Below are positions 3,974 through 40,983 of a stretch of 64,000 bases of DNA, one piece after another (position 1 is the stretch's first letter; every line of letters starts with the position of its first letter). A program made the position numbers and the translations under genes. This DNA is from Halovenus salina. GTDB lineage: Archaea > Halobacteriota > Halobacteria > Halobacteriales > Haloarculaceae. The notes under the pieces are model-generated. The model saw only the letters and a list, made by a program, of their open reading frames with translations, had not been told where the DNA came from and did not search any database. The DNA lies in assembly GCF_026410925.1 (NCBI RefSeq), contig NZ_CP112974.1, positions 62,001 through 126,000 of the forward strand. Reading direction: 5' to 3'.

Positions 3974-4783
3974 CGAGACTGACCAGACTGTTAACTGGCT
4001 GCTGGTTCGCTACAATCTAGCACTTGGCTAGGCCGTCCTATACGACGCCACTGAAATGCGTATCCGTATCTGGGATTCCTTCGGGACGGTGTTCAGCCAC
4101 GACAAGCTGTTCGGGTTGATGCACCACATCTATCCCATCGACACCAACGGCGGCCGTGTAAACAGTACGGATGCGGCGGCCAGCTACGAGGCCGTACTGG
4201 ACGGGCCAGCCTCGCTGTTCTCGAAAACACAGAAATACGGCATTCGCATGGCTACGTTCCTCCCAGCGCTGCCACTGTGTAACCGCTAGGAGATGACCGC
4301 CGACATCACCGCAGATCAGCAAAACACCGACACCCTTCAATTCACACTCAACACCCATGACGGACTGGTTTCGCACTACAGTGCGGGCGGGGAGTTCGAC
4401 AGCGATGTTGAGCGCACGCTCGCCCGAAAGTGGAAGCGATCAAATACCGACTGGGAACTACAACGCGAGCGGGACGTGTTCGAACTCGGCAAAAAAGTGA
4501 TTATTCCCGATTTCGCCATCAAACATCCTGATGGCCGACGTGCGATTTTAGAGATTATCGGCTTCTGGACCCCGAGTATCTGGACGCAAAACTCCAGAAA
4601 CTCCGTCAACTAGACACGGACTACTTCATACTGGCAGTCTCAGAGCGTCTGGCTTGCAGCAGTGACGACTTCAGCCAGGCCGCCGACCGCATCCTCTGGT
4701 TCAAGACCGGTATGCACGTCTACGATCTCGTCGAGTTGGCCGACCAGTACGCGAGCGAACCACATCAGAAGGATCGTCCGTGA
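3967..4783 (+). pseudogene. Decayed Bax1/DUF790 nuclease copy
   Basis: Conceptual translation matches the C-terminal two thirds of the intact Bax1 at 9541-10893 over its whole length: VNWLLVRYNLALG, AVLYDATEMRIRIWDSF, KYGIRMATFLPALPLC, YSAGGEFDSDVERTLA, PDGRRAILEIIGFWTP, RILWFKTGMHVYDLVELA. There are in-frame stops at about 4027 (TAG) and 4287 (TAG), and a frameshift at about 4570. The N-terminal part is absent. The match is clearly diverged from the intact gene, so this is an older paralogue and not a recent duplicate. Confidence 0.85.
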
Positions 4784-6103: not shown

Positions 6104-6866
6104 CCGGAGTCAGCCCACGGCCTGCCCGTTGGGCAATAAGCGACAGCTTTGGGCAGATACCGCCGGGAGCCAGTTGCTATCGTCTGTTCGGAGCGGTGAA
6201 TTGGAACTGCCTCGATCTACTCTGTGGTAACAGCAGAGACTGACCGTCAAATTATACAGAACCAGCCCTCGATCATCTAGGTGGCCCAATCGCACTTCTG
6301 GCACTCGCTGATGAGACGCCCACGGTCGAGTTCAGACTGGGAATTCGTTTTTCGACGTAAAATCCACGCAACAGAAGCGGTTTCTTCACCATCTTTACCG
6401 TCTGAACCCGAGGGTTGCCGTTCGGATAACGTCCTCTAGATTGACGCTCCGGAAATTGCTCGCCCGACATGGCGATCAGTTGTCGACCTCTGCGCGTGAG
6501 GACTCACAACAGCGTCTCCACAGTCGAGATACTGTCTCGACAATCACAGAGCAACACGCTCGCAACACTGAAGATACCTTGGACACACTCGGTCCTGATG
6601 ATTCGGCACGAGATGTACTCGTATCGATACGCCGTTCACGGACAGAATACCGAACATACAGTGATTTTTGGCCGCAACAATAATCATGTGAGTTCAACAA
6701 GATTTTGATGTATCCCGCCGGAGCCCGTCTGAGGTGACATACTCACTCTGGCAACGGTGGGATGCCGTAATCCTCACGAAGTTGTTTCGCTCAATTCGGT
6801 AAGAGCCCTATCCAACAGAGTGTTCAGACAGCTTGAAGCCGAAGCCTTCGCTGATTCCTCAGGCAA
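6104..6866. other. Gene-poor stretch with decayed coding segments
   Basis: No intact gene is convincing here. Short coding-like pieces remain: a plus-strand frame ending near 6360 (GGPIALLALADETPTVEF), and a two-frame piece at about 6738-6900 (YSLWQRWDAVILT, then RALSNRVFRQLEAEAF) that looks like a broken small helix-turn-helix gene. An 80-codon frame at 6441-6683 has no recognisable family. The region reads as debris between the transposase and the replication module. Confidence 0.35.
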
Positions 6867-6912
6867 TCTTACCAAACAATCAAAAGGGTATGCACTGTAA
6901 TGTTAGGTAAGA
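6867..6912. repeat. Inverted-repeat site A (7-bp arms, 32-bp spacer)
   Basis: TCTTACC at 6867-6873 and GGTAAGA at 6906-6912 are exact reverse complements with a 32-bp spacer. The same arms and the same spacer length recur at 9145-9190, just before the DUF6788 gene, so the pair brackets orc1 and the origin. Confidence 0.6.
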
Positions 6913-6969
6913 GTTTCATACCGGTATGCCATCCCCTTCTGGGAGTTCCAAATCTCAGTAACACTCAAT

Positions 6970-6990
6970 ACCCTCCACCGTTTCCGGAGC
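6970..6990 (-). repeat. Distal ORB-like element
   Basis: Reads on the minus strand as GCTCCGGAAACGGTGGAGGG, essentially identical to the ORB copy at 9008-9027. It lies just downstream of the orc1 stop, so ORBs occur on both sides of the gene. Confidence 0.65.
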
Positions 6991-7030
6991 TTTCACCGAA
7001 ATTTTCGCAATAGATTCGCGGAAGCCAAAC

Positions 7031-8287
7031 TCAATAGTCGGAGATACCGGACTGGAGAAGATTGTTATCATCAGCTGTCGACTTGATGATATCCGAGAGT
7101 TCTTCGAAACGAGAAGTTGAATTAAGGACATCAAGAACCGTTTTCAACGGGATATCGAGCTCGTACTCGTGATACCGGCCAGCTGAAAGTCCCTCATTGC
7201 GTTCGTTGACACTGATAAGCCCGAGCATATGCATATCCGAAAGATGATCACGAACGCGCCGTTCGCTTACACTATCAGCGTCAAGTCGGTCACAAACCGT
7301 CAGATACCGCTCATAAAGATCACGGGACCGGACGGGTACCTCATCAAGTGCCTGGTGATAAGCGAGCGCACAGAGTACTGCGTGGCCCTGTGTGGTCAGT
7401 TCCTGCATTCCTTGGTAAAGCTGGTTCTTTTCGAGTTCGTCTTGTGCATCTCGAACATTCTCTTCAGTCACAGTTTCGGAATCCTTGGCTTGCGTGAGTT
7501 CGCCAGCCTCACGAAGCAGCCGAATCGCCTGCCGAGCAGATCCCGTGTCTTGAGCAGCAAACGCCGCACAGAGTGGAACAACATCGTCAGTGAGAACACC
7601 ATCATGAAACGCTTTCTCGGCCCGTGGCTCGAGAATCGAACGTAATTGATTCGCGTCGTAAGGCGGGAAGAGAATCTCCTTTTCAGCGAGCGTATCCTTG
7701 ACCTTCGGCGAAAGATTATCACGGAACTTGAAATCATTGCTGATGCCGACGATCACTGGACGGACAGTGTCGACATACCCATTCGACCGTGCTCGAGGAA
7801 GCCCGTAGAGGATGTCGTCAGAATGTCCGATGTTATCGATCTCGTCAAGTACAATCACGACTGTACCACCAAGCGCGTCGAGTTCTTCATAGAGAAGATC
7901 AAAGACCCGTTGCTGTGAGTAGCCGGTTGTACTGATACGATCTTTATTTTGATTTTTGCGAAGTTCATTGACAAGGGCAACAGCAACCTGATAAGACGAA
8001 GAGAGGTTCTCACAACTGACCCAAACAGTTGATAAATCTACATCGTCATACCCGACGGCGGAGTTCTCCAGATGTGATAGCATATACTTCGTGGCGACGG
8101 TTTTCCCTGTACCCGTCTTGCCGTACAAAAAGATGTTCGAAGTCGGGCGGTTATCAATAATCGGCTGAAGAGCTCGTTGATATTTTTCAAGTTCCTCGTC
8201 ACGTTCACGAACATCCTCAGGCTCATAAGAGTCGTCGAGTGGCTCGGCATCAGCGAACACCTGACGATCTCGCTCGAACATCCCCAT
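7031..8287 (-). CDS. orc1/cdc6: Orc1/Cdc6 replication initiator
   Basis: 418 residues, the usual size. AAA+ ATPase: Walker A GKTGTGKT at ~56-63, Walker B VVIVLDEID at ~143-151, sensor-2 region GSARQAIRLL near 255. The C-terminal ~110 residues form the winged helix that contacts ORB DNA. It would bind the ORB repeats in the adjacent 8288-9144 region as the initiator that melts the origin and recruits MCM. The gene reads away from the origin, the standard haloarchaeal arrangement. An ATG two codons downstream (8281) is an equally possible start. Confidence 0.95.
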   Translation of the reverse strand: MGMFERDRQVFADAEPLDDSYEPEDVRERDEELEKYQRALQPIIDNRPTSNIFLYGKTGTGKTVATKYMLSHLENSAVGYDDVDLSTVWVSCENLSSSYQVAVALVNELRKNQNKDRISTTGYSQQRVFDLLYEELDALGGTVVIVLDEIDNIGHSDDILYGLPRARSNGYVDTVRPVIVGISNDFKFRDNLSPKVKDTLAEKEILFPPYDANQLRSILEPRAEKAFHDGVLTDDVVPLCAAFAAQDTGSARQAIRLLREAGELTQAKDSETVTEENVRDAQDELEKNQLYQGMQELTTQGHAVLCALAYHQALDEVPVRSRDLYERYLTVCDRLDADSVSERRVRDHLSDMHMLGLISVNERNEGLSAGRYHEYELDIPLKTVLDVLNSTSRFEELSDIIKSTADDNNLLQSGISDY

Positions 8288-8335
8288 GATTTGCCATTAC
8301 ACAGTACAATATCATAAAACCACCTCTTCCTTAGC

Positions 8336-8438
8336 TTCCGGAGTTTCCGGAGCTAGGTGTTTTATAAACATCTACAACACCGGCATTTCCGGAGCTCAGT
8401 TCTTTTTATAACTCTCTCACTCCACTGTTTCCGAAGCT
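8336..8438 (-). repeat. Left ORB group
   Basis: One full copy at 8418-8438 (minus strand AGCTTCGGAAACAGTGGAGTG) and two half copies that keep only the TTTCCGGAGCT end, at about 8341-8354 and 8386-8396. Confidence 0.7.
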
Positions 8439-8647
8439 ATGACGAATACATATAGACCACTTCTAAAACATCTCTAGTACAACAAAAGAATTAAATAAAA
8501 TACGTTTGAACAAAACCCGTACTAGAACTAGGACAATATTCTAGAAAAAGAATATGTCCAAGACAGAACGACAGAAAACTCGAGAATAGTCGTTTTCCCG
8601 GTTATATTTGCTATCTCTTTTGTGGGTCCGTCTCTCTTCTTGCAGAT

Positions 8648-9129
8648 AGCTCCGGAAACAGTGGAGTGAGGGTTCATGAAATCTGTCGTCAAGAAAAGCT
8701 TCGGAAACGGTGGAGTGTATATTTTCCATATGACATTTCTAGTACCCCCAACTGCCCGTTCCAGCTCCTATTCTGATTCAAACTGGAGGTGTCTGATTGG
8801 GTGTTGAATTATTAAACGTCTCTCTAGGTTCTGATCAAGGTATTGGACGATGGTGCTCTGTTGAATAGCGGTGATTGGCTTGGCAATCAGAATGTAGATC
8901 AGTTCGTGAGTGGGTGTAACAAGTGGTCTCAAAATCGGTGTCGCCTCTACCTTACTCAGAGGCCGCTATTCAACAGAGCAGACGATAGTGGAATCTAATT
9001 CCTAAAAGCTCCGGAAACGGTGGAGGGTAGTATTTTCGGATTAATCCAAAATCTTTTCTGCCCGTGCTATTCCGATAATCGGACGATTCAGCCGATCTTA
9101 TCGGTGATTGCTCGGGAAATAGTGGTGTG
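8648..9129 (+). repeat. Right ORB group
   Basis: Copies at 8648-8670 (GCTCCGGAAACAGTGGAGTG), 8697-8718 (GCTTCGGAAACGGTGGAGTG), 9008-9027 (GCTCCGGAAACGGTGGAGGG) and a degenerate one at 9110-9129 (GCTCGGGAAATAGTGGTGTG). All share orientation and are opposite to the left group. Confidence 0.75.
8846..8988. mobile_element. 127-bp MITE with 8-bp target duplication
   Basis: Exact 18-bp terminal inverted repeats TGCTCTGTTGAATAGCGG (8854-8871) and CCGCTATTCAACAGAGCA (8963-8980) bound a 127-bp element with no open frame. It is flanked by GACGATGG (8846-8853) and GACGATAG (8981-8988), a near-perfect 8-bp duplication. Eight-base duplications fit IS6-family transposition, so this is probably a non-autonomous relative of an IS6-type haloarchaeal element; its ends differ from those of the IS6 copy at 35897-36634. 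It inserted inside the origin. Confidence 0.75.
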
Positions 9130-9144
9130 TTTCCTCCCACCAAT

Positions 9145-9190
9145 TCTTACCTAGCATTTATTCTTTTTTGACGCATATTGTTTGGTAAGA
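9145..9190. repeat. Inverted-repeat site B, abutting the DUF6788 start
   Basis: TCTTACC at 9145-9151 and GGTAAGA at 9184-9190 with a 32-bp spacer, identical in arms and spacing to site A. The right arm ends two bases before the ATG at 9193, so a protein bound here would cover the promoter or start. Confidence 0.6.
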
Positions 9191-9192
9191 TT

Positions 9193-9531
9193 ATGTCGAC
9201 TCGGCCACAGACCCCCGATTCACTTCCGAAATATCTCGCTGAGGGCGTCCCAAAACAAGACGACGCAGACTTGCGCGCTCTTCAAGATTGGATCGACGAC
9301 CTGCTCGAGTATCGTCAAGATGTCGCTGCCGAGGATATCGACGCCGGCGAAGGTGAGTCGATAGAAACTGTCGAGGAATCGAGTGGAGGAACTGTGGTGA
9401 TCAAGAAGGTTAGCTGTGGCAAGGACAACTGCAAATGCCAATCTGGCGACCTGCATGGTCCCTACAAATACATTGTCCGACGGCAGGGAGACAGTCTCGA
9501 CTGGGTGTACAAAGGAGCGGTCACTGATTGA
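9193..9531 (+). CDS. DUF6788-type small Cys protein (copy 1)
   Basis: 112 residues. N-terminal half: PDSLPKYLAEGVPKQD and a helical region. C-terminal half: VSCGKDNCKCQSGDLHGPYKYI, a CG-x3-C-x-C-x(5)-HGPY motif that looks like a small metal site next to a beta hairpin. The copy at 39052 has the same order and motif. The family's function is not established to my knowledge; the Cys cluster and the inverted repeat at its start suggest nucleic-acid binding, which is inference. It sits between the origin and the XPB-Bax1 genes. Confidence 0.7.
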   Translation: MSTRPQTPDSLPKYLAEGVPKQDDADLRALQDWIDDLLEYRQDVAAEDIDAGEGESIETVEESSGGTVVIKKVSCGKDNCKCQSGDLHGPYKYIVRRQGDSLDWVYKGAVTD

Positions 9532-9540
9532 TACCTGACC

Positions 9541-10893
9541 TCATCGGTGTAATGAAACTTCGACGGCGTATTCTTCTGCTAACTCCACGACCTCGTAGAC
9601 GTGCATCCCTGTTTTGAACCACAGCACACGGTCATCCATCCCCTCAAAATCCTCCGACGAGCAGTCGAGTCGCTCGGAGACAGCGATGATCAGATTCTCA
9701 CGGTCTGCATCTCGTATCTTTGCCAGCTTCTCATCAAGATACTCTGGCGTCCAGAAGCCCACGATTTCGAACAGTGCCCGCCGTCCGTCTGGATGTTCGA
9801 GGGCGAAGTCGGGGAGCATCACCTCAGCACCCAGGTCCAACACGTCGTCTTCTCGCCGGAGTTCCCAGTCCGTGTTCGCTCGTTCCCATTTCTGGGCGAG
9901 TGTCCGTTCGATGTCGGAGTCGAACTCACCCTGAGCAGAGTAGTGCGACGACAGGTCATCGGTGTGGTCAAGTTCGAACGATAGGGTCCGCCCCGTCGAA
10001 GCACTTTCGTCGTCAAGGATGTCAGCTTCTACGTCCCAGCGATCACACAACGGGAGCGCAGGCAGGAAATTTGCCATTCGAATGCCGTACTTCCGTGATT
10101 TCGAGAAGAGAGACGCTGCCCCATCTAAGATAGCTTCGTAGCCCTCTGCGACATCGGTACTTGCCACCCGATTGCCGTTCCTGTCGATTGGATAGATCCG
10201 GTGCATCAAACCAAACAACTTGACGTAGCTGAAGACTGTCGCAAACGAGTCCCAGACTCGGATCTGCATCTCCGTAGCATCATATAGAACAGCCTGTGCG
10301 AGCGCAAGATTGTAGCGTGTGAGCAGCCAATCGACCGTGATCGTATCTTCGGCGTAGGACTCCTCACTATCGCCTGTCAACCGAGTCGTGGTTGGTGAGT
10401 TGTCCGTCTCCTCGTATCCATCGGAAACACGGTGTCCAAACCGCACGAGTCGCTTGTTCTCCTCGAGGTCAGCGTACATTCCCCGATAACACTCTTCGAG
10501 CGTGATGCCGAGTTGATCGGCAATCGAACTGTAGACTTCTAACTTCTGGGTGTCTTCACCAAGCGTCGGGTGTCGGACAATCGGATATGAGTCGTTAGCT
10601 TTCTCGAACAGTAACTGACGGATTTCTCGTGGTTCGACTGGAGCAACTGTCTCGAACTCACACTCGTCTTGGAGGAGTTTGGCCAGTCCTTGAACGATTT
10701 TGTAGTCGGTATCGGCGACAGTCAACTCGTCAATCGTCGATTCGAGCTCGCCCTTGGACTCGCCAAGATGTGCTTCGAAGATGTCGATCAATTCGCTGGC
10801 TGTCTCCCGATATTGCTGGTCGTCAGTGTCGATAAACAGCGGTTCGATGTACCTGTCCCGCGTGCGAGAGCGGGCGAGATCAGCTGTCAGCAT
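9541..10893 (-). CDS. bax1: Bax1 (DUF790) XPB-associated nuclease
   Basis: About 450 residues. DUF790/Bax1 proteins are structure-specific nucleases that bind archaeal XPB and stimulate its unwinding. The C-terminal nuclease core shows YSAQGEFDSDIERTLA, EVMLPDFALEHPDGRRALFEIVGFWTPEYL, a PD-(D/E)xK-like run with acidic residues and a Glu in FEIVGFW; the end has VLWFKTGMHVYEVVELAEEY. ATG 10893 and GTG 10899 are both possible starts; both overlap the 3' end of the XPB gene (stop at 10880), so the two are one operon and likely form a complex in DNA repair. A decayed paralogue lies at 3967-4783. Confidence 0.88.
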   Translation of the reverse strand: MLTADLARSRTRDRYIEPLFIDTDDQQYRETASELIDIFEAHLGESKGELESTIDELTVADTDYKIVQGLAKLLQDECEFETVAPVEPREIRQLLFEKANDSYPIVRHPTLGEDTQKLEVYSSIADQLGITLEECYRGMYADLEENKRLVRFGHRVSDGYEETDNSPTTTRLTGDSEESYAEDTITVDWLLTRYNLALAQAVLYDATEMQIRVWDSFATVFSYVKLFGLMHRIYPIDRNGNRVASTDVAEGYEAILDGAASLFSKSRKYGIRMANFLPALPLCDRWDVEADILDDESASTGRTLSFELDHTDDLSSHYSAQGEFDSDIERTLAQKWERANTDWELRREDDVLDLGAEVMLPDFALEHPDGRRALFEIVGFWTPEYLDEKLAKIRDADRENLIIAVSERLDCSSEDFEGMDDRVLWFKTGMHVYEVVELAEEYAVEVSLHR

Positions 10894-12292
10894 CGGCACT
10901 CACCCCTTGGCGGCGACGCTGGGAGACGTACGTTTCCATCGTATCTTCGGTAATAATCTCGTAGAGACGAGCAGGCTGGCGATCGTCGGTGGGGCGGAGA
11001 ATCCGCCCGAGACGTTGTGCGTACTGTCGTTTCGAGGCACTCCCGGAGAGAATGATGCCAACGTTTGCAGCGGGAACGTCGATTCCTTCGTCGAGGACTT
11101 GAGAGGTGACCAGCATAGAATACTCGCCGCTCCGGAAGCGGTTGAGAATCTCACTGCGCTCGTCTGTCTCAGTCTGATGGGTGATACACGGGAGGATGAA
11201 CTCTTGGGAGATGTCGTAGGCAAAATCGTTGTTGGCAGTGAAGATAATCGCCCGGTCGTCGTGGTGACGTTTGAGGAGATTATCGAGCGTATCGAGTTTC
11301 TTTTCGGCGGTCCGAGCGATGGTTTCGGCGCGTTGTTTGGCGATTAGCGCTCGGCGGCCATGCGGATCGTAGGAGGTCCGTTTGAGGAATTCTTGATAGC
11401 CATTTTCCTTCCAGATCTCGAAGTCGTGATTGTCGACGTACTCTCGGTAGAGTTGGTATTCCTCGTCGTATCGCTCGCGCTCGTCGGGCGTGAGTTCGAC
11501 TTGGAGATGGATGGTTTCGTACTCGCTGAGATACTCGCCAGCAAGATTGTCAACATCTTCTGCATAGACGACAGGGCCGATCAACTCTTTGAGCACCTCG
11601 TGTTGGCCATCAGCTCGTTCGTAGGTTGCAGTGAGGCCGAGGCGATAGGGAGCAATGGTCATTTCGGGAATCTGCTGGTAGGTGGGAGCTGGGAGATGAT
11701 GGACTTCGTCGACGACGAGCAAGCCAAACTGATCGCCGTACTCGTTGATGTAGCGATAGGCGGAATCGTAGGTGGTGACAGTGATATCAGTAACAGTGTG
11801 ATCGCCGCCGCCGAGGACGCCAACGTCGTTGGGGAGTTGGTCGCCGAAGGCGTTGGTGAGAGTGGCGTGCCACTGGTTCAAGAGATCAATTGTTGGGACG
11901 ACGACAAGGGTGCTGACGCCAGCGTCGGCGATGGCTTGCACAGCGAGGAATGTCTTGCCGCTGCCAGTCGGGAGGACAACACTGCCGCGGCGGTGATGGT
12001 CAGTCCAGGCTGCCAGGGCGGCCTGCTGGTAGTCGCGGGGTTCGATCTTGACGGCAGGTGTGAGATAAAGATCGCTGTAGGCACGGGCATCGTCTTCGAG
12101 GGTCTCGACAGGCGCAGTCGATTGTTGGAGTGTGGACTGTCCATCAGTGTCTGACTCCGCCCAGTCTTGGAGGGACCGATATTGCTGGGCTCGTGCGCGG
12201 TACTGGTCGACGCGGTCGTCCCACTCTCCGTAGGGGACCGAATCTGGGGCGTCCTCGAGGAGGAGCGTGCCGTCGTCGAAGACCAGACGCAT
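10880..12292 (-). CDS. XPB/Rad25-family DNA helicase
   Basis: About 470 residues from ATG 12292; an upstream in-frame start at 12319 is less likely. Superfamily-2 motifs in order: DYQQAALAAW (Q-like), PTGSGKT (~108-114), DEVHH (~194), LGLTATYERADG, IIFTANNDFAYDISQ, LDEGIDVPAANVGII, QYAQRLGRILRP. DEVHH in place of DEAH is seen in archaeal XPB. It unwinds DNA with 3'-5' polarity, and with the overlapping Bax1 gene forms a helicase-nuclease pair for excision repair. A palindrome at 12386-12426 lies in its upstream region. Confidence 0.9.
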   Translation of the reverse strand: MRLVFDDGTLLLEDAPDSVPYGEWDDRVDQYRARAQQYRSLQDWAESDTDGQSTLQQSTAPVETLEDDARAYSDLYLTPAVKIEPRDYQQAALAAWTDHHRRGSVVLPTGSGKTFLAVQAIADAGVSTLVVVPTIDLLNQWHATLTNAFGDQLPNDVGVLGGGDHTVTDITVTTYDSAYRYINEYGDQFGLLVVDEVHHLPAPTYQQIPEMTIAPYRLGLTATYERADGQHEVLKELIGPVVYAEDVDNLAGEYLSEYETIHLQVELTPDERERYDEEYQLYREYVDNHDFEIWKENGYQEFLKRTSYDPHGRRALIAKQRAETIARTAEKKLDTLDNLLKRHHDDRAIIFTANNDFAYDISQEFILPCITHQTETDERSEILNRFRSGEYSMLVTSQVLDEGIDVPAANVGIILSGSASKRQYAQRLGRILRPTDDRQPARLYEIITEDTMETYVSQRRRQGVSADADS

Positions 12293-12385
12293 TGTAAGAG
12301 GGTGTACGGGCGGGGCCATGCTGTGTCTTGCGGAGCGGAGTTCCTGACTGGCAATTGGGAGCGATCAGTGACGACGCTCGAATTG

Positions 12386-12426
12386 TTAACCAACAACTCC
12401 GCAATATCGCACCGATTGTTGGTTAA
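12386..12426. promoter_or_regulatory. Palindrome upstream of XPB-Bax1
   Basis: TTAACCAACAA (12386-12396) and TTGTTGGTTAA (12416-12426) are perfect 11-bp inverted arms 19 bp apart, about 95 bases upstream of the XPB ATG. This fits a dimeric repressor site or a promoter hairpin. The rest of 12293-12589 shows no gene. Confidence 0.5.
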
Positions 12427-12589
12427 TATTGGACATCTCTCCGCAGACCTGGAGGGGTCCACTCTCTCAAGAAGGGGCCCGTCAGTTCCGCTGTTCTGCG
12501 TGGTGACTTGCGCCGTCCATCTTGGACGAGAACTTGTTACGATATCGCTACTCTGGCTGTGTTTCACTCAGTGTGGAGGCTCTCAGGCT

Positions 12590-13102
12590 CTACGGTCTTT
12601 CATTATCCGGAATGACAGATCCAACAGCCTCGATAATGTCGCTCTTGGATGGCTGAGTCACCTGCCCGGTTTGATTCTCATCACAGAACGCTCTAATCCG
12701 GTGATAATACACATCGGCATGGATTTGTATATCGATATCAGTCTCCATCGACTCGTATGACTCTTCAGTTACTGTAGGCGGCTCGTCACGCATTTGAGAC
12801 GCGCGTTCGGCTGCTCCTTCTGTTGTCGCGGATACGAGTGAATAGACATGATCCACGACAACCTCCTCAAATCCAGTAGTGATTGAATCATATCCTCGCA
12901 CGAGAAAGTAGATATCATCTTTGTAATCATACGACCAAATATCGATATGGACACCGATAGCTATCCCACCTTCAGGTATCTGTAGATCGTATTCGTTTTG
13001 AAATGCCTCGATTCTGTTCTGTATCGTCTCAATATCAGTATCCCCCAGATCGTCATGTATCTCATCAAGGAATTGTGCTAATACATCTCTGGGTGGTTCC
13101 AT
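12590..13102 (-). CDS. Unknown acidic protein
   Basis: 170 residues, strongly acidic, no signal or membrane segment. The central part alternates beta-like strands (GIAIGVHIDIWSYDY, IYFLVRGYDSI) with helices. No recognised family or motif. It is transcribed in the same direction as XPB-Bax1 but ends about 300 bases upstream of it, across the palindrome, so it is probably a separate unit. Confidence 0.5.
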   Translation of the reverse strand: MEPPRDVLAQFLDEIHDDLGDTDIETIQNRIEAFQNEYDLQIPEGGIAIGVHIDIWSYDYKDDIYFLVRGYDSITTGFEEVVVDHVYSLVSATTEGAAERASQMRDEPPTVTEESYESMETDIDIQIHADVYYHRIRAFCDENQTGQVTQPSKSDIIEAVGSVIPDNERP

Positions 13103-13190
13103 GCGTAACCCGATTTTTTAGCTCTATCCTCAAGAATCATGAGATTCGCCAGTACCACCAGTCCTACCTGATGCTCCTGTCGCAATGACT

Positions 13191-13217
13191 GTGCAATACT
13201 TGCGCCTTATCTTGCAC
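13191..13217. promoter_or_regulatory. GTGCAA-N15-TTGCAC inverted repeat
   Basis: Six-base inverted arms about 110 bases upstream of the tRNA-like locus. A related site with a 17-bp spacer is at 21917-21945, and the two share the stretch ATCTTGCACGCT (with one change). This could be an operator or shared relic sequence. Confidence 0.3.
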
Positions 13218-13329
13218 GCTTCAAATGACGGTGTTCGCATATGTCCAGCGGAATTCTACATTAGCACGGTGTACTAACTCTGTGGCTGCAGTACTACTAA
13301 GACACTACTCTTCGACGAGTAGCATTGCT

Positions 13330-13468
13330 GGGCATGTAGTTCAGTCTGGCAGAACGCCTGGAGTGAGGCCGGCTCGCCGGGTGCGTGAGTCCGCGCGGCG
13401 CGTACCGCGACCATCGGTCAGCGAGTCGGGCACCAGGAGGCCCTGGGTTCGAATCCGCAGCGTGCCCA
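13330..13468 (+). tRNA. tRNA-like gene with a ~65-nt insertion, isotype uncertain
   Basis: The outline of a tRNA is complete: acceptor GGGCATG/CGTGCCC, D-stem GTTC/GAAC, anticodon stem CCTGG/CCAGG, and a T-arm with TTCGAAT loop and A- and B-box promoters. Between the two halves of the anticodon stem lie about 70 GC-rich nucleotides with their own hairpins. Two faults: the T-stem has one bulged G (CTGGG/CCGCAG), and no U33 is found in the expected place. The variable region and T-arm resemble haloarchaeal tRNA-Ala, but the G3:U70 pair is not present. It may be an intron-containing tRNA with an unusual splice site, or a decayed tRNA. Confidence 0.45.
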
Positions 13469-13657
13469 TTACCACGCCTACACGAAACCGATCTACTAGT
13501 CGTGAAACCTTATTTTCCGACACCTGATTTTCGATGAACTCCCCGCTCCTGTCTGGCAGTATTCCAGCTAAAATGACGGGGATGCCCCACTGTCGGCAAG
13601 AGACTCCAGCGTGAGAGTGGCAGTAACTCTTTGCCTGCTGATATCCAACAGAACAGT

Positions 13658-14650
13658 ATGCCATTCAGTGTCTCTTGGCACACCCTCCTTGAGGAACTTG
13701 AGGACCTCCCCGATGGAGCGACGCTCGTGACGCCGCTCTCTCGGGATCGCTTTCGTCTCGACGATATCCAAGAACAACGGGTTGTCATCGACTTTCTTGA
13801 TCGTGACATCGACACCACACGGCCCTTGCAACGCGATCAATTCGAGACCCTCTATCGGCGTGTCACTGACAACGACGGTGCGTTCGAACTAGATCGACTC
13901 CCGCCTGACGCTGATCCCTATCCCGCAGTGTTGAGTCTCCACCCACGCTTCGAAGTCGACGAACAACAAGGTATGATCGTCGAAACAGAGGGGCCAACAG
14001 CCACGCAGGTTCTCGACGATGACAGCTCGCCAGTTGACACCAGCGAGCGGACTGAACCCGAGCTTGATGTCTACGCTGACGCACTCTTGCTCGTCGACGC
14101 GCTCGAACGCCACGACCTCGACACTTTCGAAGACCTCGAGACTGACGCCCTGGTCAACCTGTATACATTGTGTTCAGATGTCCAACGCAACGCCGATAGC
14201 CTTCGGAAGGAGATTGCCGACGTATTGCTCACCCGGTTACATCACGACCGCCCGGTCAGCGGTCCCTTCGGCTCCGTCCAGCGGACGTCACGGCGCAACA
14301 AGTCACTCAAAGACGACCAGGCAGTCATCGAGACGCTGGAAGCCGCAGGCGTCGATCGTGAGCAGATTACCAGTGTTGACCGCAGTAAAGTTGACGACGC
14401 CCTTGAGGTGACGGAACTTTCCGAATCCGATGTCTACGAGATCGATGAGTCAGAGTACGTCCGCAAGGCCGATGTCGACGAAGAGAGCAAGGAGACACGG
14501 CTCCAGGGATTGAAAGACCAACTTGCTGCTAGTGATGACGACGAGGCAGCCGAACTCCGGGACGAAATCGAGGCACTCGAGGCTCGGATCGAGGAGTTGA
14601 CCAGTTTCCGGACGGGGACGACGTTCCATACCCGTTCGAATGCCGAGTGA
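13658..14650 (+). CDS. Unknown coiled-coil protein
   Basis: 330 residues from ATG 13658; the frame begins at 13631. The first ~60 residues are mixed (FSVSWHTLLEELEDLP), and the C-terminal 90 residues form a charged coiled coil (KETRLQGLKDQLAASDDDEAAELRDEIEALEARIEEL). No signal or membrane segment. First of three plus-strand genes (13658-16180) that look like one unit. I do not recognise the family. Confidence 0.6.
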   Translation: MPFSVSWHTLLEELEDLPDGATLVTPLSRDRFRLDDIQEQRVVIDFLDRDIDTTRPLQRDQFETLYRRVTDNDGAFELDRLPPDADPYPAVLSLHPRFEVDEQQGMIVETEGPTATQVLDDDSSPVDTSERTEPELDVYADALLLVDALERHDLDTFEDLETDALVNLYTLCSDVQRNADSLRKEIADVLLTRLHHDRPVSGPFGSVQRTSRRNKSLKDDQAVIETLEAAGVDREQITSVDRSKVDDALEVTELSESDVYEIDESEYVRKADVDEESKETRLQGLKDQLAASDDDEAAELRDEIEALEARIEELTSFRTGTTFHTRSNAE

Positions 14651-14736
14651 CCCGCTTTGGGCCCGTATTCCTCACCCATTCCCCGGGTAAGACGACGGCA
14701 GTAGTTCGTTGGAGACGGGAGACGCGACTCGTAGAT

Positions 14737-14979
14737 ATGGCTACCATGTCGGCTGACGACTTCTCGATTCACACCGAGGACTGCCCTGCCGTCGGCGATG
14801 GGATGCCGCTCTCTGATCTGCCTGACGAAGTCACGTCAATTGAGGATCTCGACTGCGAGTGCTGGAGCGAGTATGACTCTTTAGACGAGATCTCAGAACA
14901 CCTTGTCTTCCTAGACACTCTTGGCGGGTTGCAGTGGTCCCGCTCACACTGGCGAGGTGATCAGAAAAATCCTCGATGA
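14737..14979 (+). CDS. Small acidic unknown protein
   Basis: 80 residues from ATG 14737, with a Cys pair (LDCECW) in the middle and a very acidic composition. It overlaps the start of the next gene by about 20 bases, which supports cotranslation. Its last 20 codons lie in the overlap and have unlike composition. No family recognised. Confidence 0.45.
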   Translation: MATMSADDFSIHTEDCPAVGDGMPLSDLPDEVTSIEDLDCECWSEYDSLDEISEHLVFLDTLGGLQWSRSHWRGDQKNPR

Positions 14980-16180
14980 GCGTAGCGAGCGTCTCGCGGT
15001 CGGCAGAGTCGACGTCGTCCGAGAGCTCCAGTTTCCGAACGGCGCTCCAGTCGACGAGAGTGATCGTTGCGACCTCCGCACGTTCTTGGGTGTTGCGAGC
15101 AGCGTCGGTAGCCGTTACGGAGCATACTCAGGGTATCGCGTCCTGCACGAATCACGGCCAGAGAAACGCGAGCAACTGCTCTCTGAGCCGAATGTGGACC
15201 CGATGGACCCCGAAGGGACACTGCTTGGGTCGTGGGTGCTGACTGGAGAGGGCGTTGCGGACCTCGAAGAGACGCTCTCATACTCCTCTGCTGACCTGGA
15301 ATTGCAGGAAGACAGCGAGAATTTCGCGCCATTCGTGCTCACTGGGAGTGTCGTCGACGGGAATCGGCGTCGAGCAGTAGCGGAAGCAGTCACTCGAATC
15401 CTGTCATTTAAAGATGGGCTTCGCCCGGAGCGGCAGGCGATCTCGGTGCTGGCTGGGTTGAGCAGTGACCTTGTGGCAGCGGCGGACGCGGTAGCTGCTC
15501 TTGGGGGAGAAGACGAGCCGCGAGAGATGGATCTACAGGATGTTCAGTACGGACTGTCCCAGTTGTCATGGCGACGAATCCTGCCTGAGATGGGTGAAAC
15601 TGTCGTGTCAAAGGTGGTCGCAGCGTTGCTCGACGCCCAGGAGCGAGTATCGAAAGCAGAGTTAGCTGACCTCGCAGGATGTGCAGCAAAATCACTGTCA
15701 GAACCACCCAACGAGCGGCGATTTGCGGAGTTGGAGAGTGCCGGACTCCTGGATCGTGACGACCAGGGATGCGGGAAAGCAACGCTGTGGCGATTGTGTC
15801 TCCCGCTCCGAACGGAACGACACGACGGCGAGCCGTTGCCGAGAATGTTGGTGGGGCAAAAAACCACGGCGACAGGTGGAGAATGGCACCTCTCGAACGC
15901 GGTGTCTGAGGTTCTGTTGACCAGCGCTGATGAGTACGGCGTCGAGTATGGGTTCGAGTTTGGAGGAGCGGTAGCGAGGGCAGCGTTCTGGGGGCCGCCA
16001 CCAATCGAGCGGGATGTAGGGCCACTGACGAGACAGTATCCGACGGTTGAGCCAGTCGTCTCACTCCTGGCTGTCCTGTTAGATCAAGAAGGCCGACTCA
16101 GGGAAGACAACAGTTCGTCGGTGGAGTTCGGCGTGCATCCAGATCCAGCTCAGGCGACACTCTCTGCAGCAGTCGGGTGA
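14957..16180 (+). CDS. Unknown protein, possible winged-helix segments
   Basis: About 407 residues from GTG 14957 (a TTG at 14921 would add 12 residues). Residues ~225-300 (VVAALLDAQERVSKAELADL, then ESAGLLDRDDQG) read as a helix-turn-helix with a wing, and a second such piece is near the end (VVSLLAVLLDQEGRL). No catalytic motif is visible. It closes the three-gene unit that starts at 13658; a DNA-binding role is a guess from the winged-helix pattern. Confidence 0.55.
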   Translation: MIRKILDERSERLAVGRVDVVRELQFPNGAPVDESDRCDLRTFLGVASSVGSRYGAYSGYRVLHESRPEKREQLLSEPNVDPMDPEGTLLGSWVLTGEGVADLEETLSYSSADLELQEDSENFAPFVLTGSVVDGNRRRAVAEAVTRILSFKDGLRPERQAISVLAGLSSDLVAAADAVAALGGEDEPREMDLQDVQYGLSQLSWRRILPEMGETVVSKVVAALLDAQERVSKAELADLAGCAAKSLSEPPNERRFAELESAGLLDRDDQGCGKATLWRLCLPLRTERHDGEPLPRMLVGQKTTATGGEWHLSNAVSEVLLTSADEYGVEYGFEFGGAVARAAFWGPPPIERDVGPLTRQYPTVEPVVSLLAVLLDQEGRLREDNSSSVEFGVHPDPAQATLSAAVG

Positions 16181-16249
16181 GTGACTGTGAACCGGTCTGT
16201 CGGTGATGAACAGCACGAGTCGTATCGTGCAGTGACAGGAACGGCCAAC

Positions 16250-30655: not shown

Positions 30656-33535
30656 ATGGTGTCTTCTCCGACGATCCTTGATTCGTCCTGTATATTGCTT
30701 GTCGGGACGAACGAGTGGATCACGCAATTCGAAGCAACGCTCGAGACACGGACTGATGCGACTGTTCAGCGGGTTATGGCTAAGCGAGAAGCCCTCGATT
30801 TCTTCCAGACGCAGTCTCCAGACTGCATTATCACTGCGTACATGCTTGGGGAAACGACTGGACTTGACCTGCTCAGGGAGATTCGGATCGAAACCACTAC
30901 ACTTCCGGTTATAATGGGTACTGCGTCCGGAAGTGAAGCTATCGCTAGCGAGACCATTGGGGCTGGTGTCACTGATTACGTCGCGCTGACGGACTCGGCC
31001 GACCAGATGGTAGAGGACCTATTGGATCGAACCGAGCGAGTAGTTCGATCCGCACAACGTGCGGCCACACAGCGAGAGCGTGCCAGACAGTTCGATGCGG
31101 TCTTCAGCGATTCACGCACCGCGACGTGGGTACTCGACCCGGATGGCTCGCTCACCCGTATGAATCAGACTGCACGAGAGATGATCGATGACGATATTGA
31201 TACAGTCATCGGCGAGCCCTTTTGGACGCTGCCGTGGTGGGCACAAGCAGACGAGACGAATACGGAGGTCCAGAAGCTCGTAGAGAATGCACTCGACGGG
31301 GCGTTCGGGAATGCTGTCGTTCCACAGCCGCCGCATCTCAAGGATCCTCGCGTCATCGACCTCTCTGTACGTCCTGTGGAGAGCGAACGCGGTGATCTCG
31401 TCTCGACCGTCGTCGAGGGCGTCGATATTACTGAACGAGTAGACCTCGAGCGAGACCTCCGGCAATCCGAGAAACTTCATCGCGTCACGCTCAACAACAT
31501 GACCGATACTATTCTCATCACAGACGAAGCTGGTGAGTACACCTACGTCTGTCCCAACGTCCACTTTATTTTCGGCTACACGGTCGAAGAGATCCAAAAT
31601 CTCGGGACGATCGACGAACTCCTCGGTGAGAATCTCTTCGACCGTGAGGAGCTCGCCGCAAACGGCGTTCTCAAGAATATCGAGACGACGGCGGTCGACA
31701 AAGCCGGGCGCGAGCACACGCTCTTGGTCAACATTCGCGAAGTCTCGATTCAGGGCGGAACCCTCCTCTTTAGCTGCCGGGATATCACGAAACGGAAGCA
31801 ACGCGAGGAGGCGCTCGCAACCCTCCATGAGACCGCCCGCGATTTCCTCTACGCTGAAACTCATCAGGAGATTGCCCAGCACGTCGTCGACGATACACCT
31901 GGTGTGCTCGACCTCGATACGAGCGCCGTCTATCTCTTTGATGCCGATGCTAACGTCCTGAACCCCGCCGCATACTCGACGGCAATGCAGGAATTAAACG
32001 GGCCACTTCCGACCGTACCTACCGACGGTGAAACCCTTCCGAGCTACAGTTTCGTCGAAAACGAGGCACTGTTTTTCGATGACGTTCACGAGGCGGATCG
32101 ACTCGGAAATAGGGCAACTGATCTCCGAAGTATGTCCTACATTCCACTCGGCAAGCATGGCGTGTTCGTCGCTGGCTCAGACCGGGTCGGTGTCTTCGAC
32201 GATGTCACTCGAGAATTGACTGACCTCCTTGCTGCGACGGCTGAAGCGGCTCTCGATCGTGTTTCCCGGGAGTCACAACTCCGTGAACAGGACCGTACAC
32301 TTCAACGACAGAACGAGCAACTCACTGCTCTGAATCGAACCAACGAGACGATTCGAGAGATCGACCAGGCACTTGTCCAAGCCGAAACACGGGAAGAGAT
32401 CGATCATACGGTCTGTGAGCTGTTGGCTGCTGATGATCGGTTCAAGTTCGCCTGGATTGGGACGATCGATTCAACGGCTGATACCGTCACCCCACGAGCG
32501 TGGGCAGGACGCGACCAAGGGTATCTTGACAGCCATCCCTTTTCCGTCGCTGCATCAGGTGTTGACCCAGCGGGCCAAACCGCGGCGTCAGGTGAGGTAA
32601 CGATGGTGACGAACGTCGCCGCCGAGCTTCGCGACGAGCCGTGGCGGAAAGATGCACTCACCCGTGACTTTCTTTCAGTGTTGAGTATTCCGCTCGTATA
32701 TAATGATCTCAGACACGGTGTGTTGACGGTCTATGCAACGACCCGGGATGCATTCGACGAGACGGTGACAGCCGTTCTAGCAGAACTTGGTGAAACTATC
32801 GCGTCCGCACTCAGTGCAATCGAACGGAAGAATGCATTGCTTACGACATCTGTAACCCGCGTCGAATTCGACATCGACGACCCGACGTTCGTCCTCTCAC
32901 GTCTGGCGCAGGATGCGGCATGTACTCTCTCGTACCAAGGAGGCGTCCAACAATCCACGGAGGGAAGTTACGTTTTTGTCACTGTCGAAGATACTTCACT
33001 GAGTGAGATAGCCAAAGCAGCATCACAGCTGGTAGCAATTGATGACGTACAACCGATCAGTGCAGACGGAGAAGGTGGCGTCTTACGACTACGACTCACA
33101 CAGCCGTTTCTCGCCTTAGAATTGGCCGAACATGGCGCTGTCTTTCGGGTGGCGACTGCGGATCCAGAAGGCACCACACTCGTTATCGACATCCCCGAGA
33201 GCATTGAGGTTCGAACAATTACACGACTTGTCCGCGATATGTTCACTGAGGTCAAACTCTGCTCGAAGCAGACACTCGACCAGACAATAGAGCGTGATCT
33301 CTACTCGACGTTCCTTGAGAAGCTCACAGAGCGGCAACTTGAAGTTATCCAGACGGCGTACTATAGCGGATTCTTCGAATCGCCTCGTGAGAGTACAGGA
33401 GAAGATGTCGCGGAGACGCTTGGTATCTCTCCGCCTGCGTTCTATAAACACGCTCGAACCGTCCAGCGCAAACTGTTTACGACACTCTTCGACGAACATA
33501 ATCTTGCTGTCGCACCCTCCACTGAAAGGGGTTAA
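30656..33535 (+). CDS. Bat-like regulator: receiver, PAS, GAF and HTH_10
   Basis: 959 residues, cytoplasmic. Order: receiver-like domain ~12-125 (CILLVGTN ... PDCIITAYMLGETTGLDLL, with Asp in PDCII); PAS ~130-260 and ~270-395 (VVEGVDITERV, SCRDITKRK); GAF ~400-540 and ~570-720; the bacterioopsin-activator GAF-HTH-associated domain ~735-885; HTH_10 at ~890-945 (LTERQLEVIQTAYYSGFFESPR, then VAETLGISPPAFYKHAR). This family includes Bat, the oxygen/light regulator of bacteriorhodopsin genes. The target genes are unknown; gdhB and a zinc-ribbon gene follow downstream. Confidence 0.92.
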   Translation: MVSSPTILDSSCILLVGTNEWITQFEATLETRTDATVQRVMAKREALDFFQTQSPDCIITAYMLGETTGLDLLREIRIETTTLPVIMGTASGSEAIASETIGAGVTDYVALTDSADQMVEDLLDRTERVVRSAQRAATQRERARQFDAVFSDSRTATWVLDPDGSLTRMNQTAREMIDDDIDTVIGEPFWTLPWWAQADETNTEVQKLVENALDGAFGNAVVPQPPHLKDPRVIDLSVRPVESERGDLVSTVVEGVDITERVDLERDLRQSEKLHRVTLNNMTDTILITDEAGEYTYVCPNVHFIFGYTVEEIQNLGTIDELLGENLFDREELAANGVLKNIETTAVDKAGREHTLLVNIREVSIQGGTLLFSCRDITKRKQREEALATLHETARDFLYAETHQEIAQHVVDDTPGVLDLDTSAVYLFDADANVLNPAAYSTAMQELNGPLPTVPTDGETLPSYSFVENEALFFDDVHEADRLGNRATDLRSMSYIPLGKHGVFVAGSDRVGVFDDVTRELTDLLAATAEAALDRVSRESQLREQDRTLQRQNEQLTALNRTNETIREIDQALVQAETREEIDHTVCELLAADDRFKFAWIGTIDSTADTVTPRAWAGRDQGYLDSHPFSVAASGVDPAGQTAASGEVTMVTNVAAELRDEPWRKDALTRDFLSVLSIPLVYNDLRHGVLTVYATTRDAFDETVTAVLAELGETIASALSAIERKNALLTTSVTRVEFDIDDPTFVLSRLAQDAACTLSYQGGVQQSTEGSYVFVTVEDTSLSEIAKAASQLVAIDDVQPISADGEGGVLRLRLTQPFLALELAEHGAVFRVATADPEGTTLVIDIPESIEVRTITRLVRDMFTEVKLCSKQTLDQTIERDLYSTFLEKLTERQLEVIQTAYYSGFFESPRESTGEDVAETLGISPPAFYKHARTVQRKLFTTLFDEHNLAVAPSTERG

Positions 33536-33652
33536 ATAGTATACCACTCACAACAAAAGAGGGTTAGTCAATTAACGACTATACCTTCACATATAGGCCT
33601 ATTACTCCATTAGCGAGTGCCCAGGATACCTGCTGGCACTCGTGAATCTACA

Positions 33653-33796
33653 ATGAGAGATGTCGACCCAAAACCAGACGAAGAAACCCCGTACGAGTGC
33701 TTCGAGTGTGGGAATATCATCATCGCAGAAGACAGACCTGGCCTTTGCCCTGAGTGTGGTGGTTCGCTGCGGAACCGTCGCATGCCCGTCGAATAA
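33653..33796 (+). CDS. Rubrerythrin-like zinc-ribbon protein
   Basis: 47 residues: [24 protein letters not shown], two CxxCG knuckles forming a rubredoxin/rubrerythrin-like metal site, without the diiron part. Its TAA overlaps the ATG of gdhB by one base (TAATG), so the two are coupled. Small proteins of this kind commonly precede haloarchaeal gdhB. Confidence 0.8.
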
Positions 33797-35097
33797 TGAC
33801 ATCGGAATCCACTACTACCCCTGACAAGACGGAGGACTCAACGGTCGAATCTACTGAACCGGAGTCGGCACTTGAAACGGCGCGCCGGCAGCTCCACCAA
33901 GCTGCTAGCCACCTCGATATCGACCAGAATATCGTCGAACGGCTGAAGCACCCTATGAAGGTCCACGAAGTGACCGTCCCCATTGAACGTGATGACGGAA
34001 CGGTTGACGTGTTCACGGGATATCGGGCCCAACATGATAGCGTTAGAGGTCCATATAAGGGCGGGCTCCGGTATCACCCCGAGGTGACGCAGGCCGAGTG
34101 TGTCGGACTTGGGATGTGGATGACGTGGAAGTGTGCCGTCATGGACTTACCGTTTGGTGGTGCAAAAGGCGGAGTCGCAGTCAACCCGAAAGAGTTGAGC
34201 TCAGGTGAAAAAGAACGTCTCACTCGCCGATTCGCTCAAGAGATCCGCGATGTTATCGGGCCAAATCGGGACATTCCTGCGCCCGACATGGGCACTGACC
34301 CGCAGACGATGGCGTGGTTGATGGATGCATACTCGATGCAAGAGGGCGAAACAACACCAGGCGTCGTCACAGGCAAGCCGCCGGTTGTCGGTGGGAGTGA
34401 AGGCCGCGAAGAAGCCCCTGGTCGGAGCGTTGCAATCATCACCAAGCGGGCCTGCGAATACTATAATAGCGACCTCAATGGAACGACGGTTGCAGTTCAG
34501 GGATATGGGAGTGTCGGCGCGAATGCGGCTCGTCTCCTCGACGAGTGGGGCGCAACCGTCATCGCAATCAGTGACGTGAACGGCACAATGTACGACCCAG
34601 AGGGCATCGATACTGCCGCAGTCCCATCACACGACGAGGAGCCTGAAGCCGTCACAAAATACGCCGACGACGTGATCTCAAACGATGAGTTGTTTACCCT
34701 CGACGTCGACGTACTCATCCCTGCTGCTCTCGGAAACGTGATTACCGAAGCGAATGCGGATGCGATTGCCGCGGATCTCGTCGTCGAAGGTGCAAACGGT
34801 CCCACCACCTCGTCGGCGAGTGCGATTCTCGCAGACCGAGACATTCCGGTAATTCCCGACATTCTCGCCAACGCTGGCGGAGTTACGGTGAGCTACTTCG
34901 AGTGGCTCCAGGATATCAATCGCCGATCGTGGTCGCTCGAACGGGTGAACGACGAACTCGAAACAGAGATGCAGGCTGCCTGGGAAGCTGTTCGAACGGA
35001 ATTCGAGCAGCGAGACGTCACCTGGCGTGATGCAGCCTACATCGTGGCACTGTCCCGTATTGCGAAAGCACACGAGGCGCGTGGGCTCTGGCCGTAA
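33796..35097 (+). CDS. gdhB: Glutamate dehydrogenase (GdhB type)
   Basis: 433 residues from ATG 33796, one base inside the previous stop; a GTG at 33754 is in frame but would overlap the zinc-ribbon gene. It converts glutamate and 2-oxoglutarate plus ammonium using NAD(P). Visible: substrate site [11 protein letters not shown] and the catalytic Lys region [12 protein letters not shown]; Rossmann [26 protein letters not shown]-terminal [14 protein letters not shown]. Length and motifs are normal, so it should be active. Confidence 0.95.
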
Positions 35098-39003: not shown

Positions 39004-39048
39004 CTTATGTAACATTCATACTCTGTTAGCCACTTAGTGTTACATAAG
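39004..39048. repeat. Inverted-repeat site C, abutting DUF6788 copy 2
   Basis: CTTATGTAAC (39004-39013) and GTTACATAAG (39039-39048), perfect 10-bp arms, total span 45 bp. The right arm ends three bases before ATG 39052, the same geometry as at copy 1 (46-bp span, two bases). Confidence 0.65.
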
Positions 39049-39051
39049 AAA

Positions 39052-39387
39052 ATGACACGGCCAGAACCCCCAGATTCGGCCCCGAAGTACCTCGCAGAGG
39101 GCCTCCCGAAACAGGACGTGGATACCCTCCGAGACATCCGCGAGTACGTCGACGCGCTGATCGAGTACCGCGAGCAGCCAGTCGACCCTGAGGAACTGCC
39201 GGATACTGCGGAGCCAGTCAACCTGGACGACAGCGGGAAGGGAACTGTCGTGAAAGAGAAGGTGAAGTGCGGTGACGACACCTGCAAATGTGCTAGTGGC
39301 GCTCCAGCTGACATGCACGGGCCGTACCTGTACCGCTACTACCGCGACGGCGGCGAGTTAACCTCGGAGTACCTCGGGAAGCCGTGA
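39052..39387 (+). CDS. DUF6788-type small Cys protein (copy 2)
   Basis: 111 residues, alignable along its whole length with copy 1 at 9193: PDSAPKYLAEGLPKQDVDTL and VKCGDDTCKCASGAPADMHGPYLYRYY. The same CG-x3-C-x-C-HGPY motif is kept. It lies between two inverted-repeat sites of the same sequence (39004-39048 and 39392-39438) and just upstream of parA. Function unknown. Confidence 0.75.
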   Translation: MTRPEPPDSAPKYLAEGLPKQDVDTLRDIREYVDALIEYREQPVDPEELPDTAEPVNLDDSGKGTVVKEKVKCGDDTCKCASGAPADMHGPYLYRYYRDGGELTSEYLGKP

Positions 39388-39391
39388 ATTC

Positions 39392-39438
39392 CTTATGTAA
39401 CCGCTGCGCGCTGCTGCCATGGTGTATTGTTACATAAG
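39392..39438. repeat. Inverted-repeat site D, downstream of DUF6788 copy 2
   Basis: CTTATGTAAC (39392-39401) and GTTACATAAG (39429-39438), identical arms to site C with a 47-bp span. Its position just after the stop means the gene sits within a pair of sites. Confidence 0.65.
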
Positions 39439-39696
39439 GGACTACCTTGACACTCGCCAATCGTTGTGAGTTCCGACCCAACGTGGATGATACGCACGTC
39501 GTACATGCTACTACCAGAGGAGACCTCAAATGATTGAATATTATCATCGCCTCCTCTCCTCGTTGATCTTCGTCGTCGTCCAGTCCCCGCTCAAATTCAC
39601 CTCCACGGTTCGACGATGTCAACATTTCACCATCTATCCTGTTTGAGAGACCGGAGTTCGCCAAATGCGGTCATAGTGTCTGACGTAACGTTATGT
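39439..39696. other. Gene-free stretch upstream of parA
   Basis: No convincing gene. It includes an 8-bp palindrome TAACGTTA at 39686-39693, next to the parA operator-like repeat. The rest shows nothing recognisable. Confidence 0.35.
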
Positions 39697-39732
39697 GGTT
39701 CGGCTAGTTTGTATCGTTTGTATGGCCGAACC
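39697..39732. promoter_or_regulatory. Inverted repeat spanning the parA start
   Basis: GGTTCGGC (39697-39704) and GCCGAACC (39725-39732) flank a 20-bp centre and include the ATG at 39722. ParA proteins or their partners often repress their own promoter, or bind a centromere there, so this is a candidate operator or parS-like site. Confidence 0.55.
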
Positions 39733-40561: not shown

Positions 40562-40983
40562 GAGACAATCAGGAGGGCAATGAGAGCGAGGATAGAGCCA
40601 GTCGATTGCGTGAACGGCGAAATCAGGTGCAGCAGAAGGCAAACACTGTTTCTGAATCTACGGATGGTAAATCTTCAGAGCCAACCGAATCCGCCTCGTC
40701 GGAATCCGACGACCAGTCAGAGGGGTCGGTGAAAGACGAACGCATAGGAACGTACATGTACTTGCAAGAGAGCCAGCAGAAAGAGCTCAAAAAGGTCTAC
40801 AATCAGATCAAGGCAGAGTATGAATACGAGTACGATACTGAATTTGAGAAGAACAGACAATTCTACCCGCTTGTTGTGGAGTACGGTATCCAAAGTTTGG
40901 ACAGTTTGGATGTTTCGGAGATACAAGAGAGATTAGAGAGTTTCACAGATTCGGCAGATAGGGGCGGTTACAAACGAGATTAG
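40558..40983 (+). CDS. ParA partner protein, likely centromere-binding
   Basis: 141 residues, overlapping parA by four bases. The first 70 residues are charged and disordered (SASSESDDQSEGS). The C-terminal ~75 residues (GTYMYLQESQQKELKKVYNQI ... YPLVVEYGIQSLDSL) look like a small ribbon-helix-helix or helix-rich DNA-binding dimer, as in short type Ib/III partition partners. Assigned by position; family not recognised. Confidence 0.55.
   Translation: MRDNQEGNESEDRASRLRERRNQVQQKANTVSESTDGKSSEPTESASSESDDQSEGSVKDERIGTYMYLQESQQKELKKVYNQIKAEYEYEYDTEFEKNRQFYPLVVEYGIQSLDSLDVSEIQERLESFTDSADRGGYKRD

Follow-up and report, generated by a model that had tools for sequence, protein, structure and literature searches.

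Long-spaced palindromic sites on plasmids and viruses of haloarchaea as putative binding sites of DUF6788 proteins

Two copies of a 46-bp palindrome with widely spaced arms bracket the orc1 gene and presumed origin in the window, that is, the whole stretch of 64,000 nucleotides of Halovenus salina DNA that was analysed. Sequence comparison gives good support to the view that both are binding sites of the DUF6788 protein encoded beside the second copy, since such sites are associated with the start codons of DUF6788 genes and their arms co-vary with the protein. The best explanation, to which we give a probability of roughly 0.6, is that DUF6788 binds the sites, represses its own gene, and marks the replicon for partition or origin function. 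The sites are a previously undescribed family on plasmids and viruses of salt-loving archaea; no description of them was found in the open-access literature searched.

Paired sites around orc1 and the presumed origin

The sequences at 6867–6912 (site 1) and 9145–9190 (site 2) of the window both read exactly TCTTACC-N32-GGTAAGA, at the positions given in the original prediction. None of 100 dinucleotide shuffles of the window contained this pattern. In the whole genome (3,769,933 bases) the two window copies were the only ones, while the reversed control gave 0. These results rule out a chance origin of the pair, which the prediction had already considered unlikely. It had also described arms and spacer as the same in both sites. 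This holds for the arms and for the spacer length, but the spacer sequences differ, and the arms are really longer than 7 bp: the motif found across haloarchaea is TCTTACCWAACA-N22-TGTTWGGTAAGA, with arms of about 12 bp. The two window sites are inverted relative to each other, with 16 bp in perfect complementarity (AATCTTACCAAACAAT at 6865–6880 and ATTGTTTGGTAAGATT at 9177–9192).

As had been claimed, the sites bracket orc1 and the origin, with Orc1-box-like repeats between and around them. The orc1/cdc6 replication initiator gene is located at 7031–8287 on the minus strand (Pfam Cdc6_lid, Cdc6_C, and AAA). Site 1, a class I orphan site, lies 122 bp downstream of its 3′ end and has no promoter element in its spacer. 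An Orc1-box-like repeat on the minus strand (6973–6988), which matches TCCGGAAACGGTGGAG with 0 mismatches, lies between this site and the stop codon of orc1, some 60 bp away from the former. The presumed origin is the intergenic region 8288–9144, which contains repeats at 8420–8435, 8651–8666, 8700–8715, 9010–9025, and 9112–9127. The last of these, on the plus strand, is 17 bp upstream of site 2. The locus has the arrangement of an Orc1-type haloarchaeal origin, an orc1 gene adjoined by an intergenic region with inverted Orc1-box-like repeats. The origin region also holds a perfect 18-bp inverted repeat, TGCTCTGTTGAATAGCGG, at 8854–8980 with its arms 91 bp apart, which looks like the remnant of a short mobile element.

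Site 2, also of class I and a putative operator, spans the DUF6788 promoter and has a TATA-like TTTATT in its spacer (9157–9162). Its last base is 9190 and the ATG of the DUF6788 gene begins at 9193; the predicted gap of two bases is correct.

The whole module (site, orc1, origin, site, and DUF6788 gene) was found again in other haloarchaea. In all 12 modules with the layout of the window, two of which (L081 and L083) come from one genome, orc1 and the DUF6788 gene were divergent. An Orc1-box-like repeat preceded the DUF6788 site by 10–17 bp, mostly 13–14 bp, in 11 of the 12, the exception being L079. The site at the 3′ end of orc1 was about 53–63 bp from such a repeat in most modules. Equivalents of site 1 in this position were present in L065, L067, L068, L069, L078, L079, L081, L083, and L092, and in 14 cases a site lay downstream of orc1 at a distance of no more than 600 bp. 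In the viruses phiH1 and phiCh1, a site follows repH by 39 bp and 63 bp, respectively.

DUF6788 genes and the specificity classes of their sites

The gene beside site 2 (9193–9531, plus strand) encodes a class I protein of 112 aa that belongs to Pfam PF20586 (E 2.5e-8; 34.5 bits against a curated cut-off of 27.2) and to PHROG 22659, a group with no function annotated. The second DUF6788 gene of the window (39052–39387, plus strand) encodes a class II protein (E 4.9e-9; 36.7 bits). DUF6788 was named in no paper of the searched open-access literature, in which a Haloquadratum paper on palindromes deals with transposon ends. Protein scans of viral contigs gave no match. In AlphaFold models (pLDDT 74.6 and 84.2), a helix precedes a beta sheet that surrounds a conserved Cys/His loop. 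Foldseek returned no significant fold match for them, and DNA binding by DUF6788 thus lacks structural support. The alignment revealed W-x-Y in the C-terminal hairpin of class I proteins and mostly S-E-Y in that of class II proteins. Because the hairpin differs between the two classes, it is the first place to seek the reading element, and we regard it as a candidate for the part that reads DNA.

A long-spaced palindrome at the start codon, i.e., one whose end overlaps the start or lies a few bases from it (in a few cases up to about 30 bases away), was found in the upstream regions of 53 out of 57 DUF6788 genes of the subfamily. It was found in none of 19 distant homologues, which comprise copies on haloarchaeal chromosomes as well as proteins of other archaeal families. 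We propose a start-codon palindrome of the type CTTNNNNAAC-N20..28-GTTNNNNAAG as the criterion for this DUF6788 subfamily. Among the four exceptions, the site of phiH1 is displaced upstream by one gene, and those of L390, L038, and L056 are imperfect. Loci obtained by protein search alone had the start-codon site in 21 out of 22 assessable cases, L052 being left out.

The motif occurred in 28 of 392 genomes of the order, and its reversed control in one. A 14-base pattern was also run over all genome contigs, with longer arms as a filter, since about 1000 chance matches are expected in 257 Gb; the matches were indeed mostly of the chance type. The same class I site is present at the start, or immediately upstream of it, in two DUF6788 genes of Archaeoglobaceae type (L136 and L230), and the pattern scan gave further Archaeoglobaceae-type matches. 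The contig of L136 (JALSOD010000190.1), which carries Archaeoglobaceae-type class I sites and DUF6788 with several sites in or around small genes, is labelled candidate division WOR-3 and is possibly misbinned.

Within the arms, an outer CTT and an inner AAC are mostly fixed and the four bases between them vary. These four bases define class I (ACCW), class II (ATGT), class III (ATCA; phiH1 and phiCh1), and class IV (GTGC or GTGT). Mapped on the DUF6788 tree, arm class required 5 changes against a mean of 21.9 after shuffling, and none of 200 shuffles was as low. Classes II and IV formed one clade (support 99/98). A promoter site is linked to its gene, and co-variation there could therefore reflect shared descent. 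The stronger argument comes from dispersed sites, which share the class of the local DUF6788. There are 19 sites of class IV type (GTGC) over 406 kb in Halalkalicoccus jeotgali plasmid 1 and 6 in strain CGA53. The class III (ATCA-type) sites, 4 in phiH1 and 4 in phiCh1, match the local DUF6788 class, as do the 4 class I (ACC-type) sites of Haladaptatus QDMS2.

Among aligned class I sites of haloarchaea, the information content is nearly 2 bits per position in the arms and mostly 0–0.4 in the spacers of orphan copies. The distance between the outer ends of the arms varies little; it is 43–45 bases in class I, a range partly biased by the exact search, and mainly 44–47 in class II, which was searched with a free gap of 20–30.

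One of the roles that the original prediction had offered was an operator for the DUF6788 protein. The motif proved to be conserved upstream of DUF6788 genes in other haloarchaea, and both the start-codon palindrome of the subfamily and the tracking of protein phylogeny by the arm letters argue strongly for such a role.

Dispersed sites, parA, and plasmid distribution

The second DUF6788 gene of the window has a class II site (CTTATGTAAC-N-GTTACATAAG) at its start (39004–39048) and another one directly after it (39392–39438). The latter is 257 bp upstream of a gene for a ParA-family ATPase (39695–40561, plus strand; Pfam AAA_31 E 5.3e-40, CbiA E 3.4e-21), whose start codon is uncertain. A small gene on the same strand (40558–40983) overlaps parA and has no Pfam match. 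Its relatives adjoin parA in L062, L063, L092, L144, and L180, and it is a possible ParB-like partner of ParA. The region 39004–40983 may itself be a partition cassette. Sites were also located upstream of parA in phiH1 and phiCh1 (54 and 72 bp) and in L088, L063, and L062 (134–449 bp). ParA was found within 6 kb of 13 of the 73 class I sites counted, as well as in phiH1, phiCh1, and the contigs C3 and C4 of the present genome; none was detected near many others. For 26 class I and 19 class II sites, no DUF6788, orc1, or ParA was detected within 6 kb.

Those sites of NC_014298 that could be placed on its gene table, which is incomplete, were all intergenic, and only the one at DUF6788 abuts a start codon. 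The fourth site has an identical intergenic location in phiH1 and phiCh1, some 20 bp beyond a stop codon. In the present genome, class I and class II sites were found on the three plasmids and none on the 3.33-Mb chromosome, where there was one generic match of the chance type. Plasmid C2 carries class II sites and lacks a DUF6788 gene.

Putative function and alternative explanations

From these data we infer that DUF6788 probably binds DNA in a sequence-specific manner, at an operator through which it regulates its own gene and at further sites throughout the replicon. Repression is suggested by the position of the site, and a role in maintenance by the placement of the extra copies. Two DUF6788 subunits would probably read the two arms of 10–12 bp, whose centres are about three helical turns apart, and would disregard the spacer. 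Site 2 has its arms on either side of the TATA box of a near-leaderless promoter, where binding should repress the DUF6788 gene. At orphan sites, bound DUF6788 would mark the replicon for maintenance. The placement of copies just downstream of orc1 or repH and next to Orc1-box-like repeats, and in some cases upstream of parA, points to plasmid partition or origin control. Most likely, DUF6788 would be a centromere-type (partition) or bridging protein acting with ParA and/or Orc1 at the origin.

Bacterial replicon-marking proteins, ParB with parS and MatP with matS, use several dispersed and strictly conserved short palindromes. The DUF6788 sites resemble them as dispersed palindromes that would mark a replicon. 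However, the protein families are different, and the half-sites of parS and matS are contiguous or almost so, while about 20–26 unconserved bases separate those of the DUF6788 sites. Closer analogues are found in Sulfolobus. AspA of the AspA-ParB-ParA system of pNOB8 is a small DNA-binding protein of an archaeal plasmid with a palindrome upstream of its own gene, as DUF6788 has, and a ParA is sometimes near DUF6788 too. But AspA belongs to the winged-helix proteins and has a single 23-bp palindrome, whereas the DUF6788 sites are 46 bp long, multiple, and dispersed, with widely spaced arms (PMC5120986). The DUF6788 profile gave no AspA match among PDB sequences, and Foldseek gave no fold match to it. 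In SegAB, the archaea-specific partner of a ParA-type ATPase also binds palindromes upstream of its cassette; however, segB always follows segA, while the DUF6788 gene is separate and often divergent (PMC5120986). No homology between DUF6788 and SegAB was found. We would class DUF6788 as a self-regulated, multi-site DNA-binding protein of replicon maintenance, with AspA-ParB-ParA and SegAB as its closest analogues.

A more specific proposal, which we hold tentatively and at somewhat below even odds, is an undescribed archaeal system for the segregation or organisation of plasmids and viruses. In such a system a DUF6788 of unmatched fold would act on dispersed, centromere-like 46-bp sites with a lineage-specific 4-bp arm core that tracks the protein. 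These sites would lie by orc1 or repH and parA, in lineages from haloarchaea to Archaeoglobaceae. Against partition, a possible centromere binder is already encoded by the small second gene of the ParA operons. With class II sites on C2 but its DUF6788 gene lacking, a partition mark would there have to be shared between replicons. The many sites at which no DUF6788, orc1, or ParA was detected within 6 kb also count against this reading. A review lists as open questions the identity of the centromere sequences on archaeal replicons and their clustered or dispersed arrangement (PMC5120986), and the sites are concrete candidates for such sequences. They offer a testable role for DUF6788 and PHROG 22659, a family without known function, and the motif is present in dozens of genomes of haloarchaea, in Archaeoglobaceae, and in the viruses phiH1 and phiCh1. 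The natural specificity classes provide ready-made swap controls, and the two viruses, together with laboratory hosts, a tractable test system.

The original prediction had also listed a copy-control site for the origin. A role in origin or copy control, or in partition, is plausible in view of the sites near orc1 or repH, the Orc1-box-like repeats, and sometimes parA; copy control by itself we consider rather unlikely, with something over one chance in five. Under this alternative, an autoregulated DUF6788 would act negatively at the origin, either by touching Orc1 on the adjoining boxes or by looping the origin shut through the paired sites. The close spacing of Orc1-box-like repeats and sites at both ends of the module would suit it, as would the bracketing of orc1 and the origin in many genomes. 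In Haloarcula hispanica, boxes downstream of cdc6E damp oriC2 (PMC3936714). Such Orc1-box clusters flank haloarchaeal cdc6 genes and control the origin; the DUF6788 sites are likewise cis elements on both sides of orc1, with a possible part in origin control, but they have another sequence and are tied to DUF6788 rather than to Orc1, though they stand beside Orc1-box-like repeats (PMC3936714). Copy control fits less well with sites far from any origin, as in the 406-kb plasmid, with sites beside repH, which is a different initiator, and with the C2 sites that have no DUF6788 gene. Most of the evidence is common to copy control and partition.

It is improbable that DUF6788 is a local repressor with a small regulon, the orphan sites being operators of other plasmid genes. 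The site does span the promoter of the DUF6788 gene itself, and the spacers of 13 of 22 promoter sites as scored contain a TATA-like element. There are sites upstream of parA, and the phiH1 transcription start T8 is inside the right arm of a site. However, the orphan spacers almost never have such an element (3 of 35 as scored, two of these three being mislabelled promoter sites), and the sites checked in NC_014298 are 100–335 bp upstream of genes or downstream of genes. A purely local repressor would account for the DUF6788 promoter and perhaps that of parA, but would leave the dispersed sites unexplained.

Recombination or inversion sites, or ends of mobile elements, which the prediction had also suggested in part, are disfavoured and very improbable. 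A spacer that differs between the two window sites and is unconserved elsewhere offers no crossover core, and a site-specific inversion system would have an identical one in both sites. The constant orientation in 12 out of 12 modules speaks against recombination and excludes an invertible origin switch, and no recombinase or transposase was a recurrent neighbour in the plasmid loci examined, a partial survey. The one lead is the inversion of nt 31,932–34,126 between phiH1 and phiCh1 (PMC6210493). Its right end is at the edge of the site at 34,078–34,125, and, with int2 and repR as reference, the DUF6788-parA block between two class III sites has opposite orientations in the two viruses. This flip could be ordinary homologous exchange between two similar palindromes. 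An insertion sequence with terminal inverted repeats was rejected as only orc1 and the origin, and no transposase, lie between the sites; mobile-element ends were rejected as the flanks of sites 1 and 2 have no matching target duplication and the copies are single or dispersed.

Several minor observations concern the plasmids. In contigs C2, C3, and C4, 30–43 kb of the start is repeated at the end with 99.9% identity, so they represent uncircularised circular plasmids of about 146, 102, and 87 kb. The class II sites of C4, at 702 and 43825, are 43.1 kb apart and thus almost opposite each other on the 86.7-kb plasmid; one is at the DUF6788 gene and the other about 1 kb upstream of orc1. Two genomes, L064 and L080, have in common two class I sites separated by 1.87 kb, near which no DUF6788, orc1, or ParA was detected. 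A 6.6-kb segment of the window (9534–16182), encoding an XPB-like helicase and a DUF790 (Bax1-type) protein, is 96% identical to C4:34089–40741 and is close to orc1 on both plasmids. A DUF790 fragment is also present at 4293–4613 of the window.
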